A DNA stretch of 64,000 bases, from NCBI RefSeq assembly GCF_028368855.1, contig NZ_JAQNCY010000003.1, forward strand, positions 1-64,000. Reading direction: 5' to 3'. The stretch's first letter is position 1. Every line of letters begins with the position of its first letter. Shown here piece by piece: positions 783 through 62,489 of this stretch. Position numbers and translations under genes: made by a program. This stretch comes from Leisingera sp. SS27 (GTDB lineage Bacteria > Pseudomonadota > Alphaproteobacteria > Rhodobacterales > Rhodobacteraceae). The notes beneath the pieces are model-generated. The model saw only the letters and a list, made by a program, of their open reading frames with translations. It did no database searches and was not told the origin of the DNA.

Positions 783-2207
783 CTATGCGATCAGGCCAAC
801 GCGTTTCCGAATGGCTTCAAAACTCTGACGCGCGATGATCTCGCCATCCCGGAAAACTGTTTTCAGCGCGTCGTGGCCGGACGGGATGTTACCGTATGGG
901 CGAACCACAAACTTGCCCGCATCTGTTTCCATCACACCAAGACGCCCTTTCTTCGAGGTTTTGCTGCCCGCGGCAGTGATCGGGTCTTTGAAGACGTCGC
1001 GCCATTCCCCGTTCACACAGATGGCCGAGCTTTTCATCGAGTATGAGAACGTATCCCGATCCAGTTTCTGCAGCAGGCCTGCGCCCATGCCAAAAGCGAT
1101 GTTGCCAATGGCAAGGCCTCGCTCAATCATCCGGTCCATGATCCGGACAATAGAGGTCTTGTTCACCCCGTCGCCCTGGATCACCCGCACCTGGCTGGGC
1201 AGGATACGGAAATTGTTCGGGGTCAAGGAATAGCCGAACCTCTCCATCAGCGCCTCGATCACATCGGGCACGATCTGCAACGGGTCGCCGCTGTCGGGGC
1301 GTATGACAAGCACCCCGTCACGGGCCAATACCGTGTCGCGCAGCTCAGTGCCCCAATACTCCCGCACCGCCCGCATCAGATCGTAGCTGTCCGAAACACA
1401 GGCGATGATCCCTTGGGGGTTGTCCGCAAGGAACTGCCGCATGAAGTCTAGCTCTCCATCCGCACCGAAAGAGGTCACGGTGCTGTGCTCTGTCGCAGGG
1501 ATCGAGAAACCGGCCATGCCGGCACCGTAAACGTTGCGGGCAAGTACAAGCCCGCCCACTGTGTCGGTGCCCATCGAATTCACCAAATGCGCAGCTCCGC
1601 CGATTGCAGCACTTTCGGCGCTGGTGGCACCGCGCGCACCGAAGTCGTGCAGTTTGAAGGCAAGGCCTTCGTCGCTGCCATCCGTGCGGATCAGGCGGTC
1701 CCGGATTTGCCGTACAACGTAGTTTGAAATGGTCGCGACGGTGCTGGGATACCAGACGGCCCGAAGGAACCGGGTTTCCAGAAAGCCGGGCAAGGCCCAG
1801 CATTTGGGATCGGTATTCACAATTCTGACCTGCGGGATCGAGACCGGGGCAATCGTTCCTTCCGCCAGGGCGTCAATCTGCACGGGCAAAAGCCCGTCGT
1901 GCGCATCAATGATGTGCTGAAACATTTCGACATAGAGCGAAAGGCCGTGGGCTTCGATAAAGGGGGTGGCCTCGTCCAGCATGGCTTGGGTGACGATGCG
2001 CCCTTCCAGCTTCACCAGTTCAGCCTGAAGGCCGAAAAACAGGACCTCATCGATCTCACCATCGGGTCGGCGCGGCTCGATATAGGCAAAGACCTGTTCA
2101 GTGCCTTCGGGAAATTGCTTGGGGTGGCTGTATTTGTAGCTGTCCGTGTCGAGCAGGAAATTGCCCGTAGCAACACTGTTTGCAAAATTTGATGTTTGCA
2201 TCATCAT
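783..2207 (-). CDS. nadV: nicotinamide phosphoribosyltransferase
   Basis: Converts nicotinamide and PRPP to NMN, the first step of the non-deamidating NAD salvage route, in the cytosol. The 474-residue length is normal for NadV/NAMPT. Visible signatures are HDFGARG near 187, the phosphorylated-histidine motif PATEHST with His about 241, and RPDSGDP near 303. The start is the first of three consecutive ATGs, which has AGGAGG nine bases upstream; an in-frame upstream ATG has no such site. It lies 88 bases after nadM and is surely co-transcribed with it. It looks intact, unlike every other cargo gene of this unit. NadV is found on plasmids and phages. Confidence 0.93.
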   Translation of the reverse strand: MMMQTSNFANSVATGNFLLDTDSYKYSHPKQFPEGTEQVFAYIEPRRPDGEIDEVLFFGLQAELVKLEGRIVTQAMLDEATPFIEAHGLSLYVEMFQHIIDAHDGLLPVQIDALAEGTIAPVSIPQVRIVNTDPKCWALPGFLETRFLRAVWYPSTVATISNYVVRQIRDRLIRTDGSDEGLAFKLHDFGARGATSAESAAIGGAAHLVNSMGTDTVGGLVLARNVYGAGMAGFSIPATEHSTVTSFGADGELDFMRQFLADNPQGIIACVSDSYDLMRAVREYWGTELRDTVLARDGVLVIRPDSGDPLQIVPDVIEALMERFGYSLTPNNFRILPSQVRVIQGDGVNKTSIVRIMDRMIERGLAIGNIAFGMGAGLLQKLDRDTFSYSMKSSAICVNGEWRDVFKDPITAAGSKTSKKGRLGVMETDAGKFVVRPYGNIPSGHDALKTVFRDGEIIARQSFEAIRKRVGLIA

Positions 2208-2295
2208 GGCTCCAGTCCTCCTTGGATTGGATATGTGAAGCCGTACCGGACCTCCCGGCAGGCTGGGGATCATGGCCCCGGCGGGGCCGATGAAT

Positions 2296-3402
2296 TCAGT
2301 GCATCCGGCTCATCAGAACCGAAGAATAGGCAAAGGGCACATTGGGCACCAATGCCTGAATGATGTCGAAGTGATCTTCGAACATCACATCCGGGGTCAG
2401 CTGATTGACCGGCATCCAGAAGGCGCGTTTGGCGTCATCCGCGCCTTTGACCTTTTCCTGCGCCTTGCCATCAATCAGCTCGAACTTGAACGCTTCGGTG
2501 CGCACCCAGCCTCGTTCGGAGCGATCCGGGTGGTCGAACACCTGCCGCGCGGCGATCCGGCCCTCCAGCAGCTTGCGCGGAATGTTCAGGCGGGTTTCCT
2601 CGATCAGCTCGCGGATTGCTGCCTCTTGCGCAGTTTCTTTCTGGAGGTGCCCGCCAGGCAAAGCATACAGTCCTTGCCCCGGAGCCTTGGCCCGTTCGAC
2701 CAGCAGAATATGCCCGTTCTGGACCACCACCGCATCGGCGCAGTCCGCAGGGATTTCATGTCCAAACGCGGCAACTGCCTTTCGGTAGTTCTCGCGATAG
2801 GCCTGATTATACGCCGCCTCTGCGCGGATTTGAGCCACCGCGCCTGTGTTTTGCTCCATCCATGAAACAACCTGATCGGTTTCAACCGCACCGAAGGTGT
2901 CACGCAATTTCGCAACGGGAGCTTTATCCAGGAACAGCCCGGCGCGCATGTCGGTGGCATTCAAAACAGTGGATCCGTTGCGTTCCGCCTCTACTGAGAC
3001 AGCTTCGAGCTCCGGAAACCAGCGCAAGTAGCGGCTGCTTTCATCCTTATCATGCCCGACCAGAACAATCCGGGCATCCGCCCGCGCAATCCCTTGGGTT
3101 CTTAAGTGAAGATCAATCGCCGTGCGCACATTGCCTGCCCAGGTCTTGTCGTCATACAGAGTATCGATCAGCGGGAGGTATGTGATGTCCGCCGTGCAAC
3201 CAGCAGATTTCATAGCTGTGGTGATGAAGTCCGCCCGTTCCGTCCATTTGAACGCGTTCTTCTCTGATCTCGGCCGGAAAGCCGATCCGATCAGCGTCAA
3301 CGTTTGATCTGAGATTTGTGAAGCATGTTCGAACAGCTGACGGTGCCCTTTGTGAAAAGGCTGAAACCGTCCAATGATCACTGAAAGCGTGACCTGTGTC
3401 AT
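2296..3402 (-). CDS. nadM: bifunctional NMN adenylyltransferase / Nudix hydrolase
   Basis: The N-terminal half (1-170) is a nucleotidyltransferase with GRFQPFHKGH at 11-20, which joins NMN and ATP to give NAD. The C-terminal half has a full Nudix box (GX5EX7REUXEE) at 250-270 and probably hydrolyses ADP-ribose or a related dinucleotide. Together with nadV it forms a complete nicotinamide-to-NAD route. The ATG at 3402 has GGAGGT six bases upstream. It overlaps the stop of a 10-codon upstream reading frame in an ATGA junction. The fused architecture is known in NadM proteins of bacteria such as Synechocystis and Francisella. The gene shows no lesion. Confidence 0.92.
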   Translation of the reverse strand: MTQVTLSVIIGRFQPFHKGHRQLFEHASQISDQTLTLIGSAFRPRSEKNAFKWTERADFITTAMKSAGCTADITYLPLIDTLYDDKTWAGNVRTAIDLHLRTQGIARADARIVLVGHDKDESSRYLRWFPELEAVSVEAERNGSTVLNATDMRAGLFLDKAPVAKLRDTFGAVETDQVVSWMEQNTGAVAQIRAEAAYNQAYRENYRKAVAAFGHEIPADCADAVVVQNGHILLVERAKAPGQGLYALPGGHLQKETAQEAAIRELIEETRLNIPRKLLEGRIAARQVFDHPDRSERGWVRTEAFKFELIDGKAQEKVKGADDAKRAFWMPVNQLTPDVMFEDHFDIIQALVPNVPFAYSSVLMSRMH

Positions 3403-5030: not shown

Positions 5031-5888
5031 TTATGCCACTTTCCGTTCGAATGCGACCGGGCTTTTCCAACCCAATGCTGAGTGCCGTCGGCGCGGATTG
5101 TAGAAGCCGTTGATGTACTGGAAGATGGCCATTTCAGCGTCTCGGCGTGTTGGCCATGACCTGCGCCAGATCAACTCGGCTTTGATTGTTTTGAAGAATG
5201 TTTCGACAGCAGAGTTGTCATAGCAATTGCCCTTCCCGCTCATCGACGCCTGGAACCCATGCTGGCGCAGGGTCTTCTGATAGTCGTGCGAGCAGTACTG
5301 GCTGCCGCGGTCCGTATGATGGATGCAGCCCTTCGGTGGCCGTCTCAATGCGACGGCCATCTTCAATGCCCGGATCGCCAGGTCGCGCTTCATGCGATTG
5401 CTCACGGCCCAGCCGATGACACGCCGGGAATGCAAATCCAAAATCACGGCAAGATAGAGCCAGCCTTCCCGTGTCCAGACATAGCTGATGTCGCCCGCCC
5501 ATTTCTGGTTGGGCTGATCCGCTGAGAAGTCCCGGTTCAAAAGGTTCGGCGCAATGTTGAAGGCATGATTACTGTCGGTCGTTACCTTGTATTTCTTTGA
5601 GCGTTCGACCCGTATTCCGTTCTCGCGCATCAAGCGCCCGACGCGACGGTGTCCGACGTTCAGGCCAAGTTCCTTCAACTCTTCAGTCATCCTCGGGCGG
5701 CCGTAGCTCCCCAGGCTGAGACGGGATTGTTCCTTGATGTGGGCCAGAATAACCATGTCGGTTCGCTGCCTTCGGCTGGCGGGACGGCTGCGATAGGCGC
5801 GCAAGCCTCGTTCGCTGACATTCATAACCCGACAAAGGCGGCTGGTCGGGAGGCCTCGGCCATGCTCCTCAATGAACCGAAACCTCAT
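5031..5888 (-). CDS. IS3-family transposase OrfB (DDE integrase domain)
   Basis: A 285-residue rve-domain transposase. The catalytic acidic residues are visible in GDISYVWTREGW, HHTDRGSQYC and NSAVETFFKTIKAEL. An HTH_21-like segment lies at about 45-95 and the C-terminus is the usual NPRRRHSALG. Its start overlaps the end of orfA. The A-rich run ctaaaaaag (complement of 5918-5925) is a plausible -1 slippage site that would make the OrfAB fusion transposase. Confidence 0.93.
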   Translation of the reverse strand: MRFRFIEEHGRGLPTSRLCRVMNVSERGLRAYRSRPASRRQRTDMVILAHIKEQSRLSLGSYGRPRMTEELKELGLNVGHRRVGRLMRENGIRVERSKKYKVTTDSNHAFNIAPNLLNRDFSADQPNQKWAGDISYVWTREGWLYLAVILDLHSRRVIGWAVSNRMKRDLAIRALKMAVALRRPPKGCIHHTDRGSQYCSHDYQKTLRQHGFQASMSGKGNCYDNSAVETFFKTIKAELIWRRSWPTRRDAEMAIFQYINGFYNPRRRHSALGWKSPVAFERKVA

Positions 5889-56140: not shown

Positions 56141-57535
56141 TCAGGCGGCCTCTGTGCACTCCGGCGTCAGGGTTACCTGATTGCGGCCCGCGTTCTTGGC
56201 ATCATAAAGCGCCTGGTCGGCCTTTTCGACCAGTGCCGCAGTGCTGCCGCCGTGGCCTGCGCCGCCCATCACCGCGCCGACGCTGATCGTGACTTTGACC
56301 GGTTCGGCGGCACCCGGCACCTGAAACGGGGTGCTGTTGATCGCATTGCACAGGGCAATGGCAGCCAGGCTGGCCTCCGGCTCGGTGGCGCCGGGCAGTA
56401 CCGCCATGAATTCCTCGCCGCCGACGCGGGCCAGCAGGTCCGCCGGCCCCAGCACCGCCTGCATGCGGCGGGCGGCCTCGATCAGCACGGCATCGCCGGC
56501 CGGGTGGCCATAGACATCGTTGATCCGTTTGAAGTGATCCAGATCGGCCAGCATGACGGCAAATTTCTCGCCGGTCTCAGCAGCTGAATGCGCCACACGA
56601 TCCAGAAAAGGCTTGGCATAGCGGCGGTTGTAGAGGCCGGTCATCGGGTCCAGGTTGGCAGCGCGCAAGCCATTGCGGACGCTGTCGCGCATCAGGTCGT
56701 TGCGGGCTTTGTGCTGCAGCTGCGTGTTCAGGCGCAGGGCAAGCTCCTGGACATCGAACCCGGTTTGCAGCACGTCGTGTGCGCCGCGGTCCAGCGCCTC
56801 TGCCGCGATGTGCGGATCAGCGGGGTTGGGCACGGCAATCACCACTGATTTGCGGGTGGCAGCGCGGGCGCGCAGATCGGCCAGCAGGCGCAGCCCGGGG
56901 CCGGCTGACGCCTCGTTCAGCTCAATGATGATGGCATCCGCCACAGGCGCCTGCATCAGGCCCTGAATGTCGCTGATGGCATGGGTGCGGAGTGCATAGG
57001 GCAGGGTGCGTGAGAGACGGTCGCGCCAGGCCATGGCCGTGCGCGGGTCCTCGGCCACCACGGCCACGGTGGCATCGCGCAGGCTCTCGCTGCCGGCGCG
57101 GTCGCACAGCGGCAGGATGAAACCCTGCGAGGCGTCGCGCTGCAGGTTCAGCTCCTCGCTGGCGCTGCGTGCGCGCAGCAGGCTGCGGATGCGGGCCTGC
57201 AGGATCACGTCGTCCACCGGTTGTTGCAGCACATCGTCAATGCCTTCTGCCAGCGCCTGCAGCCGGGCCTGGTGGCCCTCCCAGTCGGACACCGCAATCA
57301 CCGGCAGGTCGGCCAGCCCCTCATCCGCTGCCAGCGTGCGTTTGACATCTGCGGCTGTGCCATCAGGCAGTGACATCGCGGTGAGCACAAGGTCAGGGCG
57401 GCAGGTGCGGGCGGCCTGGAGCACCTCTGCCATGCAGCTGGCCTGGGCGACATCGTAATAGGCAGACGCCAGCTGCACCTTCAGCATGATGCGGTTGGTG
57501 GAGACGCCATCGATGACCAGGATAGTGCCTTGCAC
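56141..57535 (-). CDS. pleD: PleD-like diguanylate cyclase with degenerate receivers
   Basis: 464 residues: two receiver-like domains (1-120 and 150-275) and a GGEEF domain. The first receiver has VIDG instead of the acidic pair, VLTAMSLPDG with Ala in place of the phosphorylatable Asp, and LQQPVDD lacking the Lys. The second is more diverged. The cyclase keeps ADLDHFKRINDVYGH and RVGGEEF, but the inhibitory RxxD reads GPAD. It is likely active but not phosphorylation-controlled. Confidence 0.88.
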   Translation of the reverse strand: MQGTILVIDGVSTNRIMLKVQLASAYYDVAQASCMAEVLQAARTCRPDLVLTAMSLPDGTAADVKRTLAADEGLADLPVIAVSDWEGHQARLQALAEGIDDVLQQPVDDVILQARIRSLLRARSASEELNLQRDASQGFILPLCDRAGSESLRDATVAVVAEDPRTAMAWRDRLSRTLPYALRTHAISDIQGLMQAPVADAIIIELNEASAGPGLRLLADLRARAATRKSVVIAVPNPADPHIAAEALDRGAHDVLQTGFDVQELALRLNTQLQHKARNDLMRDSVRNGLRAANLDPMTGLYNRRYAKPFLDRVAHSAAETGEKFAVMLADLDHFKRINDVYGHPAGDAVLIEAARRMQAVLGPADLLARVGGEEFMAVLPGATEPEASLAAIALCNAINSTPFQVPGAAEPVKVTISVGAVMGGAGHGGSTAALVEKADQALYDAKNAGRNQVTLTPECTEAA

Positions 57536-57992: not shown

Positions 57993-58682
57993 ATGACGGT
58001 TGATGCTTTCCTGTTCGACAAGGACGGAACCCTGTTTGACTTTGCCGCCACCTGGGATGGCTGGGCGTCCAAGGTGCTGGAGATACTCTCCAAGGGCGAT
58101 CTTGCCATCAAACAGGGGATGGCAGAGGTTATCAGCTATGACCTGGAGCGCGAGGCTTTCAATCCGGACAGCCTGGTGATCGCCGGCTCCAATGACGAGG
58201 TGGCTGGCGTGCTGGCGCCTTTTGTGACGCATATGGAGGCAGGGGAGCTTGCGGCATTCCTTGCGCAAAGCGCTGCAAATGCCGATCTGGCACCGGCGGT
58301 ACCGCTGGCGGCGTTTCTCGATGGTCTACTGGCACGCGGCAAGGTGCTGGGGGTTATGACCAATGACGCCGAGGTCTCAGCCAGGAGCCAGCTGCAGCGG
58401 GCCGGGGTGCTGGACCGCTTTGCCTTTGTAGCGGGCTGCGACAGCGGTCACGGTGCCAAGCCGGACCCGGATCCGCTGCTGGCGTTCTGCAAGGCCGCGG
58501 GCGTGTCTCCGGACCGGACCGCCATGGTTGGCGACAGCCGCCATGACATGGAAGCAGGTGCGGCGGCCGGGATGCAGCGGATTGCTGTGCTGACCGGAAT
58601 GGCCCTGCGCGAGGAGCTGCTGCCGCACGCGGATATCGTGCTGCCCGACATCGGCCATATCCCCGGCTGGCTGGACCGCTGA
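57993..58682 (+). CDS. HAD-superfamily phosphatase (Gph-like)
   Basis: 229 residues. Motif I FLFDKDGTLFDF, with Lys between the first Asp and Asp+2; motif II VMTNDA; motif IV MVGDSRHDMEAG. Small-molecule phosphatase, possibly phosphoglycolate. Confidence 0.9.
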   Translation: MTVDAFLFDKDGTLFDFAATWDGWASKVLEILSKGDLAIKQGMAEVISYDLEREAFNPDSLVIAGSNDEVAGVLAPFVTHMEAGELAAFLAQSAANADLAPAVPLAAFLDGLLARGKVLGVMTNDAEVSARSQLQRAGVLDRFAFVAGCDSGHGAKPDPDPLLAFCKAAGVSPDRTAMVGDSRHDMEAGAAAGMQRIAVLTGMALREELLPHADIVLPDIGHIPGWLDR

Positions 58683-58769: not shown

Positions 58770-58928
58770 GCATGTCAGACTGGGCATATGTGTACAGAAA
58801 TACTCCGGCCCGGCGCTTGATGCGGGAAAAGCGACAGGCGGGGTCGTGAACGGACAGGTTCAGGCGCGCGGGAATGGCGCAGTGTTTGCTTGTCAGCAGG
58901 TGGCAATTCAGACCCAGGGGAGGGCAGC

Positions 58929-60488
58929 ATGGCAGAAACAGGCACACGCAAACGGCGCGGCGGGGGCAGGGCGGGTGCGGCAGCCCGGCGCGGCAGTGCT
59001 GTTCTGGAGCAGATGCCCTGGAATCCGCCGCGCAACATCGACCGCCCCATAGAGCCGCTGAGCGAGGACGGGGTGCAGGCCATCCATGATGGCGCCATGC
59101 GCATCCTCGAAGAGATCGGCATCCAGTTTTTCAACGAGGAAGCGCTGGGGATCTTCAAGCAGGCGGGCGTGAAGGTTGAGGGCGACCTGGTCCGGATGGA
59201 CCGGGACTTTGTCATGGAAATGGTCGCGAAGGCGCCGCGGCAGTGGACCCTCACGCCGCGCAACCCGGAGCGCCGGATCACCGTCGGCGGCGATGTGATG
59301 CTGTTCGGAAACGTGTCCTCGCCGCCCAATTACTGGGACCTGGAGCAGAACAAGAAGACAGCGGGCACCCGCGAGCAATGCCGCAACCTGCTGAAGCTGA
59401 CACAGTACTTCAATTGCATCCACTTTGCCGGCGGCTATCCGGTGGAGCCGGTGGACATCCATGCCTCGGTGCGCCACCTGGATGTGCTCTATGACAAGCT
59501 GACGCTGACCGACAAGGCCATGCACGCCTATTCCCTGGGCAAGGAGCGTGTTGAGGATGTGATGGAAATGGTCCGCATCGCGGGCGGCCACAGCCATGAG
59601 GAATTCGACGCCAGCCCGAAGATGTACACCAACATCAACTCCACTTCACCGCTGAAGCATGATGAGCCGATGATCGACGGCTCGCTGCGGCTGTGCCGCC
59701 GCGGCCAGGGGGTGGTGGTGACGCCCTTCACGCTGGCAGGCGCTATGGCTCCGGTGACCATGGCGGGGGCGGTGGCGCAATCCATCGCGGAATCGCTCTG
59801 CGCAATCGCGCTGTTCCAGTATGTTGCGCCGGGCTGCCCGGTGGCGATCGGCACCTTCACCTCCAATGTGGACATGAAGTCCGGCGCGCCTGCCTTCGGC
59901 ACCCCGGAATATATGCGCTCAACCCAGATGACCGGCCAGATGGCGCGCTTTTACGGGCTGCCGATGCGGGCCTCCGGCGTCTGTGCAGCCAATGTTCCGG
60001 ACGGGCAGGCGATGTGGGAGACCTCCAACTCGCTGTGGTCCGCCGTCCAGTCGGGCAGCAATATGATCTATCACGCGGCTGGCTGGCTGGAGGGCGGGCT
60101 GATCGCCAGCCCTGAAAAGTTCATCATGGATTGCGAAGTGCTGCAGATGATCCAGCGCTACATGGACCCGACGGTCAACGCCACCGGCCCGGACGAAATC
60201 GCCCTGGATGCGATCCGGGAGGTTGGCAACGACGGTCATTTCTTCGGCATCCAGCACACTCAGGACCGCTATACCACGGCGTTCTACCAGCCATTCCTGA
60301 GCGATTGGAGTAACTTTGAGGCCTGGGAGGCCGCAGGGGCCACCTGGACCGCGGAGCGCGCCCACAAGATGTTCAAGGAGATCATCGGGTCCTTCGAGGA
60401 GCCGCCAATGGATGCGGCGATCCGGGATGAACTGGCGGATTTCGTGGCCCGGCGCAAGGCTGAGGGCGGGGCGCCCACTGATTTCTAA
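58929..60488 (+). CDS. MttB-family (trimethylamine methyltransferase-like) protein
   Basis: 519 residues of the corrinoid methyltransferase superfamily: LEEIGIQFFNEEALGIFKQA, VVTPFTLAGAMAPVTMAGAV, and NMIYHAAGWLEGGLIASPEK. There is no in-frame TAG, so no pyrrolysine, placing it among the non-Pyl members that act on betaines such as glycine betaine, proline betaine or carnitine. No corrinoid-protein gene is adjacent. The start at 58929 follows GGAGG. Confidence 0.87.
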   Translation: MAETGTRKRRGGGRAGAAARRGSAVLEQMPWNPPRNIDRPIEPLSEDGVQAIHDGAMRILEEIGIQFFNEEALGIFKQAGVKVEGDLVRMDRDFVMEMVAKAPRQWTLTPRNPERRITVGGDVMLFGNVSSPPNYWDLEQNKKTAGTREQCRNLLKLTQYFNCIHFAGGYPVEPVDIHASVRHLDVLYDKLTLTDKAMHAYSLGKERVEDVMEMVRIAGGHSHEEFDASPKMYTNINSTSPLKHDEPMIDGSLRLCRRGQGVVVTPFTLAGAMAPVTMAGAVAQSIAESLCAIALFQYVAPGCPVAIGTFTSNVDMKSGAPAFGTPEYMRSTQMTGQMARFYGLPMRASGVCAANVPDGQAMWETSNSLWSAVQSGSNMIYHAAGWLEGGLIASPEKFIMDCEVLQMIQRYMDPTVNATGPDEIALDAIREVGNDGHFFGIQHTQDRYTTAFYQPFLSDWSNFEAWEAAGATWTAERAHKMFKEIIGSFEEPPMDAAIRDELADFVARRKAEGGAPTDF

Positions 60489-60852: not shown

Positions 60853-61440
60853 ATGCACGGTCTGATCAACAGGGCGATTCAGGCTTTTGTGACGAGTACC
60901 TACGGGGCGGACCGCTGGGAAGAGGTCATGGAGCAGGCCGGACTCGGTTTTACCGAGTTCGAAGCAATGCTGTATTACACTGAGGAGCAGTCCGGCAGCA
61001 TGCTGACTGCGATGGAGACAGTGCTTGCCCGGCCCCTGCCGGAAATGCTGGAGGACATGGGCACCTTTCTGGTATCGAACCCGCAGGTGGAGGCGCTGCG
61101 GCGGTTGCTGCGCTTTGGCGGCGTGACCTATGTGGAATTCCTGCACTCTCTGGATGACCTGCCGGACCGCGCCCGGCTTGCGGTGTCCGACCTGCACCTG
61201 CCGGGTCTGGAATTACTGGAACAGGCGCCGGACCAATTCGAGTTGATCTGCCAGCCCGGACTGCCAGGATACGCGCATGTCCTGATGGGGGTTCTGCGGG
61301 CGATGGCGGATGATTATGGCGATCTGGTCTTTCTGGACCACAGCGGCACCCACGGCGGTGCAGAGGTAATCTCAATCACCCTGGTGGAAACCAAATTCGC
61401 CGCCGGGCGGGAATTTGACTTGGGGGCTCATTCATTATGA
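60853..61440 (+). CDS. H-NOX (haem NO-binding) family protein, haem histidine absent
   Basis: 195 residues. The N-terminus MHGLINRAIQAFVTSTYG matches H-NOX. At the place of the haem-ligating His (NLDALHDH in guanylate cyclase) it reads SLDDLPDR, with Pro104. The YxSxR propionate-binding motif is also not seen; the region reads ELICQPGLPG. It overlaps the GGDEF gene by four bases. NO sensing through an H-NOX/cyclase pair is known in roseobacters, but this copy may bind haem differently or not at all. Confidence 0.85.
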   Translation: MHGLINRAIQAFVTSTYGADRWEEVMEQAGLGFTEFEAMLYYTEEQSGSMLTAMETVLARPLPEMLEDMGTFLVSNPQVEALRRLLRFGGVTYVEFLHSLDDLPDRARLAVSDLHLPGLELLEQAPDQFELICQPGLPGYAHVLMGVLRAMADDYGDLVFLDHSGTHGGAEVISITLVETKFAAGREFDLGAHSL

Positions 61441-62489
61441 TGACACTCCCGCAACTGACCGGAATGGCAGATGTCATCTGCCCGATGTTTGTGATCGTTG
61501 ACCACAAGGGGCGGATCGTTTCGGCCGGTCCCACACTGAAGAAGCTGCGCCCGCAGCTGAACTGGGAAGGGCGGCGCTTCTTCCGGGTGTTTGATCTGTC
61601 CAGGCCCCGGTCGGTCCGGTCAGTGGAAGATCTGCTGGGCTCCGCCGGCAGCAAACTGCATCTGCAGTTCCGGGATGCGCCGCAGACAGGGCTCAAGGGG
61701 GTATGCACGCCGCTGCCGGACGGCCAGGGGGCCTTTCTGAACCTGTCCTTTGGCATCTCGGTGCTGGAGGCCGTGCGCGACTACGACCTGACAAGCGCAG
61801 ATTTTTCCCCCACGGACCTGACCATCGAGATGCTGTATCTGGTTGAGGCGAAATCTGCTGCGATGGAGGCCTCGCGCCAGCTGAACCTGCGGCTTCAAGG
61901 GGCCAAAATCGCTGCTGAAGAACAGGCTTTCACCGATACGCTGACGGGGCTCAAAAACCGCCGGGCTATGGACCATGTACTGGCACGGCTGATCAGCAGC
62001 GGCCGGGAGTTCGCGCTGATGCACCTGGATCTGGATTTCTTCAAGCAGGTCAATGACACGCTGGGCCATGCCGCCGGAGATGCGGTGCTGCAGCAGGCGG
62101 CGCGGATAATGGTGGAATGCACCCGGCAGTCCGACACGGTGGCCCGTGTCGGCGGTGATGAATTTGTGATGATCCTTGAAGGGGTTCTGGATACCGGCAG
62201 GCTTGCGGCGATCGCCAAGCGGCTGATCCAGCGGCTGGAGGAACCGGTTGCGTTCGGTGGTCAGAGCTGCCGGATTTCCGCAAGCGCAGGAACCACCCTT
62301 TCCAATTGGCAAAAGGTTCCGGATGCCCAGGAGCTGCTGAACCAGGCTGATCTCGCGCTCTACGCTGCCAAACGCGCCGGGCGGGCACAGCATTGCTTCT
62401 ACCGTGAGGGCATGGAGAAGAATGGCGCGGCAGCTGCAGGGGCAGAGGCGTCTGCCAGTTCCATGGCATCCCGCGGCCCTGCAAAGTGA
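61437..62489 (+). CDS. diguanylate cyclase with H-NOX-associated domain
   Basis: 350 residues: an HNOBA/PAS-like sensor domain (1-150, CPMFVIVDHKGRIVSAGPTL), a short coiled coil, and a GGDEF domain (LDLDFFKQVNDTLGH, RVGGDEF). The inhibitory RxxD is present as RQSD, so product feedback is expected. Start ATG 61437 overlaps the H-NOX stop. c-di-GMP output of the upstream sensor is inferred. Confidence 0.93.
   Translation: MMTLPQLTGMADVICPMFVIVDHKGRIVSAGPTLKKLRPQLNWEGRRFFRVFDLSRPRSVRSVEDLLGSAGSKLHLQFRDAPQTGLKGVCTPLPDGQGAFLNLSFGISVLEAVRDYDLTSADFSPTDLTIEMLYLVEAKSAAMEASRQLNLRLQGAKIAAEEQAFTDTLTGLKNRRAMDHVLARLISSGREFALMHLDLDFFKQVNDTLGHAAGDAVLQQAARIMVECTRQSDTVARVGGDEFVMILEGVLDTGRLAAIAKRLIQRLEEPVAFGGQSCRISASAGTTLSNWQKVPDAQELLNQADLALYAAKRAGRAQHCFYREGMEKNGAAAAGAEASASSMASRGPAK

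Follow-up and report, generated by a model that had tools for sequence, protein, structure and literature searches.

H-NOX proteins are the textbook sensors of nitric oxide (NO), and a relative of theirs, guanylate cyclase, is the nitric-oxide sensor of human blood vessels. Their haem is held by the proximal ligand His105 and by the YxSxR clamp, and in canonical H-NOX proteins NO breaks the bond between the iron and this His, giving a released conformation. The present work deals with an H-NOX gene and the diguanylate cyclase gene that follows it in a stretch of 64,000 nucleotides from Leisingera sp. SS27 (family Rhodobacteraceae; RefSeq assembly GCF_028368855.1, contig NZ_JAQNCY010000003.1, positions 1 to 64,000 of the forward strand), hereafter the window. 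The encoded H-NOX keeps the fold, has lost both haem anchors, is under purifying selection and is regularly paired with an intact, feedback-inhibited cyclase. To judge from sequence comparison, it is probably a haem-free regulatory subunit of that cyclase.

Group 5, a branch of H-NOX proteins most of which lack the haem ligand, has been published before and is not new as a kind. Lee-Lopez and Yukl (2022, PMC8738867) built Group 5 from the Paracoccus denitrificans H-NOX Pden_3719, with less than 10% of members having the His and most having Pro, with GGDEF, MTTB and HAD genes nearby, with the glycines kept and with no Cys conserved throughout the group. The proximal His is missing in the H-NOX proteins of P. 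denitrificans and R. sphaeroides according to Kumar and Spiro (2017, PMC5588039), who also report that a Paracoccus hnoX mutant is partly deficient in biofilm, that a dgcAB mutant overproduces it and that NO acts also without hnoX. Haem-free redox sensing through Cys has been described for the H-NOX of V. cholerae (PMC8738867; PMC7108781). The H-NOX of Dinoroseobacter shibae is reported to bind NO and then inhibit the cyclase Dgc1 (PMC8846402, PMC7232146). The published members of the group that we found are those of Paracoccus, known from genetics and omics, and that of Dinoroseobacter, with His and NO binding. The P. denitrificans protein that was read (locus L385), from a strain other than the published one, has Pro104. 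Searches of the open-access literature gave no later study of the ligand in group 5.

The window H-NOX resembles Group 5 in the Pro that occupies the site of the proximal His, its adjacent GGDEF gene, the HAD and MTTB genes nearby and the glycines kept. It differs from the Paracoccus members in sharing 36–37% identity with them (tblastn against four records of Paracoccus: 36.3–37.3% over 97% of the query, E from 5e-29 to 1e-31), and in the Cys133 present in every row read of its own subclade. By its similarity to Paracoccus, its Pro and its neighbours, it is assigned to the group 5 of the Rhodobacteraceae.

The gene pair and its lost haem anchors

The sequence-only reading that preceded this analysis had described an intact H-NOX gene coupled to a cyclase gene, and the open reading frames bear this out. 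The features of the pair are the following:

60853–61440, + strand: group-5 H-NOX (HNOB) gene, 195 residues; from Pfam, alignment to PDB entries and a structure model
61437–62489, + strand: HNOBA-GGDEF diguanylate cyclase gene, 350 residues; from the open reading frame, Pfam and a model
61437–61440, + strand: ATGA, in which the H-NOX stop overlaps the cyclase start; putative translational coupling
61162–61164, + strand: codon CCG of Pro104, at the place of the proximal haem-ligand His; from alignment
61249–61263, + strand: codons 133–137, Cys-Gln-Pro-Gly-Leu, at the place of the YxSxR clamp, with Cys133 at the former Tyr
61405–61422, + strand: C-terminal tail Gly-Arg-x-Phe-x-Leu, residues 185–190; low model confidence
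61437–61784, + strand: HNOBA part of the cyclase, model residues 1–116; from Pfam and the model
61818–61928, + strand: long helix linking HNOBA to GGDEF, cyclase residues 128–164; from the model
62124–62135, + strand: RQSD, the RxxD product-inhibition site of the cyclase
62151–62165, + strand: GGDEF active site of the cyclase

Pfam matches the first protein to HNOB with 74.8 bits (cut-off 25.5) and its partner to HNOBA with 26 bits (cut-off 23.4) and to GGDEF with 148.8 bits (cut-off 23.8). Profile searches of the host genome gave a single HNOB match and four GGDEF matches, and zero matches to the NosP (FIST) profile at E 0.001. The closest named records to the H-NOX are those of Leisingera, with 92–98% protein identity, and a metagenome-assembled genome of the Rhodobacteraceae matches it at 100%.

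Pro104 had been placed opposite the haem ligand His105 and the YxSxR motif reported missing, and both statements hold. In a phmmer search against the PDB, residues 1–155 align to Nostoc Alr2278 (4iah, 2o09) with a sole gap at residue 36–37, so that ‘LDDLPDR’ lies on ‘LDNLHAR’ and CQPGL on YQSTR; since there is no gap near the ligand region, Pro104 faces His105. The register is identical in multiple alignments with 44 canonical H-NOX proteins of the same family, in which the ligand column holds 43 His and 1 Gln. A shifted register that would bring another conserved His onto the ligand position is excluded by the ungapped alignment there, and His98, on the helix of the ligand position, is found in only 133 of the 249 group-5 loci defined below. 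The conserved His2 lies in another part of the protein, on the N-terminal helix.

Structure prediction, which had been proposed as a check, recovered the H-NOX fold. The AlphaFold2 model, made from an input alignment of 60 sequences (the window protein and 59 relatives), has a mean predicted local distance difference test score (pLDDT) of 87.8, falling below 50 only at residues 181–195, and a predicted template modelling score of 0.83. Structure comparison (Foldseek, VIA-align 2) places it among H-NOX proteins and the beta-1 domain of soluble guanylate cyclase (sGC), with 42 rows at Z 20.9–12.2 and the next at 9.1; against Nostoc H-NOX 2o09, Z is 20.3 with a root-mean-square deviation of 2.4 over 177 residues. 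The common fold shared with canonical H-NOX (Nostoc Alr2278, Shewanella) and sGC beta-1 extends over about residues 1–178 and includes Gly70, Gly146 and Pro117, which we take to be hinge and haem-contact residues. Whereas these relatives have the proximal His, YxSxR and haem, the window H-NOX has neither the His nor YxSxR.

Below the H-NOX rows of the same comparison stand TRAPP proteins (6aq3 and 2j3w, Z 8.7 each), one of them with covalently bound palmitate. They raise an explanation that we consider unlikely, namely that the empty haem pocket takes a small hydrophobic molecule, such as a lipid, an aromatic compound or a porphyrin precursor, and signals its presence to the cyclase. The strong purifying selection that persists after the loss of the haem anchors would be consistent with such a role. 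However, a Z of 8.7 may reflect a mere common arrangement, and the cellulose-synthase proteins BcsD/AxCeSD score slightly higher (9.1–8.9).

Spread and conservation of the branch

The H-NOX gene is present in each of the 21 genomes of the genus, always with 195 residues and 89–100% identical. Codon 104 is CCG in 19 of them, CCC in one and TCG in one, giving 20 Pro and 1 Ser. In 210 pairwise comparisons the ratio of nonsynonymous to synonymous substitution rates (dN/dS) has a median of 0.043. Purifying selection acts on the gene, and both this ratio and its presence throughout the genus contradict gene decay. The related idea that the H-NOX is a decaying relic, kept by its linkage to the cyclase, could draw on the loss of the known cofactor-binding residues and on an in-frame TAA within the gene in two family genomes (locus L074 in genome G290 and L294 in G196), but it appears extremely improbable, with HNOB present in 296 of 394 family genomes, two motifs nearly invariant and a phenotype reported for hnoX in Paracoccus (PMC5588039).

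The family sample comprised these 394 genomes, about one per genus, with 332 HNOB matches in all (summed by hand); 292 of the 332 loci were read (290 of the family, together with L001 and L014) and 40 were left unread. A locus was assigned to group 5 when an HNOBA-GGDEF partner of more than 290 bits lay downstream on the same strand, as in 245 of the 290 family loci. The group-5 set of 249 consists of these, the genus loci L001 and L014, and the Paracoccus plasmid records L385 and L407, whose partners reach no more than 262 and 278 bits and which were added by hand; L074 (His) and L294 (Asn), the two genes with an in-frame stop, are counted in it. L389, a group-5 row whose contig ends 108 bases past the gene, stands outside the 249 among 45 rows without a partner, so that the canonical H-NOX proteins number 44 and the group-5 loci of the family number 246 with L389 counted. 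L022 (partner 264 bits; His and clamp) was excluded, as it keeps the haem site and lies outside group 5 on the tree, and including it would give 22 His and YxSxR in 1/250. Finally, the named set contains 80 loci of the nearest relatives, 75 of which have both flanks.

YxSxR is found in none of the 249 group-5 loci and in none of the 101 of the genus and named sets, compared with 41 of the 44 canonical proteins. Residue 104 in group 5 is Pro in 179 loci, His in 21, Arg in 12, Gln in 9, Asn in 7, Ala in 6, Ser and Gly in 4 each, Glu in 3, Thr in 2, and Tyr and Asp in 1 each; in the named set it is Pro (65), Ser (11), Ala (2), Thr (1) or Asp (1). As the clamp is gone in all 249 and the His only mostly, the loss of the clamp, more than that of the His, marks the branch. 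Other parts of the protein are firmly retained: the motifs RRLLRFGG (residues 83–90) and ADDYG (152–156) are nearly invariant, Gly70 is kept in 248 of the 249 loci (with one gap), and Gly146 and Pro117 in 249 each. An R-x-F-x-L tail, with R, F and L together, occurs in 225/249 loci and in 0/44 canonical proteins.

The sequence-only reading had spoken of a haem-free or differently liganded branch with a new signal. The branch is real and much larger than one gene, with the ligand mostly lost, the clamp lost in all rows read and the cyclase kept; the new signal is undemonstrated and the branch had already been published. Searches of open-access papers did not turn up the group-wide loss of YxSxR, the place of D. 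shibae in the group or the Cys133 seen in the Roseobacter subclade; all three may be known already.

In a sample of the class (385 genomes, E 1e-15), nine genomes match the group-5 profile. Four do so at 289 bits or more, all of them from the same family, and the other five (79–125 bits; four from other families and the genome of L022) have His and clamp. Canonical and group-5 H-NOX proteins occur together in at least 17 genomes (hand count). The trees were quick FastTree trees, from which one His row with more than 60 gaps was omitted; the 248 group-5 rows split from 19 canonical rows with support 99, and L022 adjoins them with support 97. The outgroup rows of the H-NOX tree do not form one clade, so that its root is not established. 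L022, the nearest row outside group 5 (supports 97, 99), has an intact haem site and a related cyclase (264 bits) that, unlike the window cyclase, continues into an apparent EAL stretch (by eye). On the evidence of this single locus and the unrooted quick tree, the haem anchors were probably lost only after the H-NOX had become paired with HNOBA-GGDEF.

A comparison with Dinoroseobacter had also been suggested. Genome G055 matches 3.3 kilobases of the D. shibae plasmid pDSHI01 at 100% on two of six contigs, one of them at plasmid coordinates 1024–4327, and the matches of two other genomes, G249 and G185, likewise round to 100% but lie at different coordinates; we infer that locus L387 of G055 is the D. 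shibae H-NOX. This protein lies on the same branch as the window H-NOX, with the same type of cyclase and with CIWHR at the clamp place instead of YxSxR. However, it reads DLHDR at the ligand and thus keeps His104, and it differs from the window protein also by its reported NO binding. Since it belongs to the minority of 21/249 with His, the NO binding reported for it should not be extended to the proteins with Pro104.

Two further observations concern single records. L064 keeps YxSxR and has Gln for the proximal His, apparently a separate ligand loss in a clamp-bearing protein. L119, on a contig titled Nocardioides marinus, has a Leisingera-like locus with 89% protein identity and is probably a mislabelled record.

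The cyclase partner and the competing readings

The cyclase was correctly described beforehand as keeping its active and inhibitory sites, with GGDEF and RQSD both intact. The same holds for nearly all partners of the 249 group-5 proteins, with GGDEF intact in 248 (L378 reads GGD--) and RxxD in 245. In the model of the window cyclase, an N-terminal domain is followed by a helix of 37 residues and then by GGDEF, and the fold-search matches cover mainly residues 124–327 (GGDEF). The layout is presumably that of sGC with GGDEF replacing the guanylate cyclase domain, and we take the HNOBA part to be PAS-like. Regarding the overlap of the two genes, the context of the H-NOX stop in the 249 loci is ATGA in 140, GTGA in 43, TTGA in 7 and CTGA in 21; because A, G or T before TGA is expected in three of four cases by chance, the argument for overlap lies solely in the surplus of ATGA. 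Naturally fused H-NOX–cyclase proteins were considered and rejected, since the long frames that were examined (L083, L086, L110 and L111) are readings upstream of the start.

Mean-field couplings were computed from the 249 paired sequences. The top inter-protein scores, 8.4, 7.4 and 6.5, compare with best scores of 5.1–6.6 in eight row permutations. Of the 60 strongest inter-protein couplings, 15 fall in the helix region 117–164 of the cyclase (8.7 expected), 25 in HNOBA (21 expected) and 20 in GGDEF (30 expected), and the top 300 couplings include 89 inter-protein pairs, below the 142 expected; in view of this distribution and deficit, we do not propose a docking surface. The strongest coupling of H-NOX residue 104 is that to residue 114 of the cyclase (5.2, against 1.9–3.8 when permuted), and Arg114 is found in 125/179 Pro104 rows, 3/21 His104 rows and 16/49 others. 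On independent tree pairs the association of Pro104 with Arg114 is not significant (6.4 same against 1.9 opposite, median p 0.22), which leaves it as a hint for mutagenesis and not a result.

In the reading that we prefer, the H-NOX retains its fold and its dedicated cyclase but most likely no longer holds haem in the manner of H-NOX proteins. It would dock on the HNOBA and helix part of the cyclase encoded by the overlapping gene and would damp the synthesis of cyclic diguanylate (c-di-GMP), a direction presumed for Leisingera. Without the iron–His tether, it may rest in the state that canonical H-NOX proteins reach after NO breaks the Fe–His bond. The Paracoccus hnoX mutant, of a distant relative, behaves as if its H-NOX restrained its cyclase. 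Overall, a haem-free protein is likelier than the other readings; another ligand and no ligand are indistinguishable by sequence.

One rival reading is that haem is still bound, through His2, His98 or Cys133 (as thiolate), in a gas sensor with altered chemistry, and it seems rather improbable. His2, in the N-terminal helix, is present in 224/249 group-5 loci and in 0/44 canonical proteins (Lys 37, Tyr 4, Leu 2, Arg 1), and Cys133 is found in 80/80 named and 21/21 genus loci; moreover, a protein binding haem and NO is reported for the related Dinoroseobacter. Nevertheless, His98 and Cys133 each occur in only 133 of the 249 loci, the clamp is absent, and His2 is about as frequent beside His104 (17/21) as beside Pro104 (162/179), which argues against a replacement of one His by the other.

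Cys133, the only Cys of the window H-NOX and located at the place of the clamp Tyr, also suggests that NO or oxidants could be sensed without haem through S-nitrosation or oxidation of this residue, an explanation that we regard as very unlikely. The V. cholerae H-NOX offers a precedent, and the one copper nitrite reductase gene (nirK) above the family cut-off in the host genome is a likely source of NO. However, besides the restricted occurrence of Cys133 already given, 24 of the 249 proteins have no Cys at all, and HNOB of any kind is not enriched with nirK (41/51 nirK genomes against 255/343 others, p 0.39, the link to denitrification being judged by nirK alone). Two substitutions were considered as companions of the change at residue 104 and discarded: Cys133 is not associated with Pro104 (102/179 Pro rows against 31/70 non-Pro rows, p 0.09), and Trp135, at the place of the clamp Ser and a candidate filler of the pocket, is commoner without Pro104 (20/70 against 7/179, p 1.7e-7, the best of many columns), but this signal is lost on independent tree pairs.

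The entropy of residue 104 ranks 96th of 195 columns in 228 group-5 loci, and the His104 rows are scattered on the H-NOX tree, with 17 changes for 20 rows against a mean of 19.5 and a minimum of 17 in 200 shuffles. Judged from the alignment and trees, the position is freed from ligand duty and yet non-random, with Pro both inherited and preferred.

Several points weigh against a haem-free subunit. On the joint tree of H-NOX and cyclase, the His104 rows are slightly clustered (15 changes; 200 shuffles with mean 19.4 and minimum 16), and Pro104, in 72% of rows, is clustered on the H-NOX tree (45 changes, against a mean of 60.3 and a minimum of 51) and on the joint tree (37 changes, against 60.0 and 53), so that selection at residue 104 is possible. 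His2 and, in the window protein's own subclade, Cys133 could act as alternative ligands or redox sites. The D. shibae H-NOX, without the clamp, is listed as an NO-binding haem protein in the review PMC8846402, so that a protein may lose just the clamp and still hold haem. The model resembles NO-activated human sGC (Z 20.9, 20.7 and 20.0) more than inactive or unliganded entries (19.6 and 19.2), but this modelled preference is small and partly within ties. The control of the couplings is lenient, since permuting the pairs strips shared descent as well as contact. Finally, c-di-GMP in Paracoccus could not be measured directly, according to PMC12582929.

Neighbourhood of the pair and meaning of the branch

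Two neighbours of the pair in the window are conserved, with counts that refer to the named loci with both flanks:

58890–60488, + strand: MTTB-family methyltransferase gene, upstream; in 68/75 loci
57993–58682, + strand: HAD-family hydrolase gene; in 69/75 loci, with its name taken from an annotated Phaeobacter region

In the same 75 loci the cyclase is present in 75 and a small upstream open reading frame in 68. The MTTB-family protein has a frame of 532 residues with zero in-frame TAG and scores 272 bits against the cut-off of 525 of the trimethylamine-specific model, and by its sequence it is probably a non-pyrrolysine methyltransferase. Near the pair lies a gene for a PleD-like receiver-GGDEF protein (56141–57535, − strand), and as a PleD-like match is found upstream in 55 of the 75 loci, two cyclases share the neighbourhood.

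At the other end of the window, the first 8 kb have a GC content of 0.555–0.598 per 2 kb, against 0.60–0.68 elsewhere. This part carries a tRNA-Met (47–123) and genes at 783–3402 and 5031–5888, both on the − strand; beside the tRNA-Met are genes of the nicotinamide phosphoribosyltransferase type and the cytidylyltransferase-NUDIX type (a pair for NAD salvage) and a transposase-type integrase gene. By its composition and gene content, it looks like a small island.

A broader proposal, possible but tentative, is that across the Rhodobacteraceae the H-NOX fold, once that of a haem-based sensor of gases, now serves a diguanylate cyclase as a receptor or clamp subunit free of haem. The haem clamp is gone in every member read and the ligand position would be released; in most members residue 104 would lie on the face that contacts the cyclase, and the subunit may respond to a non-gas signal or hold c-di-GMP down as a constant brake. 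Proteins of this branch carry the annotation ‘heme NO-binding’ even though most of them keep neither haem anchor, and the branch is common, with 246 loci in the family sample. Moreover, the series that nature provides, from proteins with His and clamp through those with His only to those with Pro and without clamp, all with a related cyclase, is well suited to testing the role of haem in H-NOX signalling.

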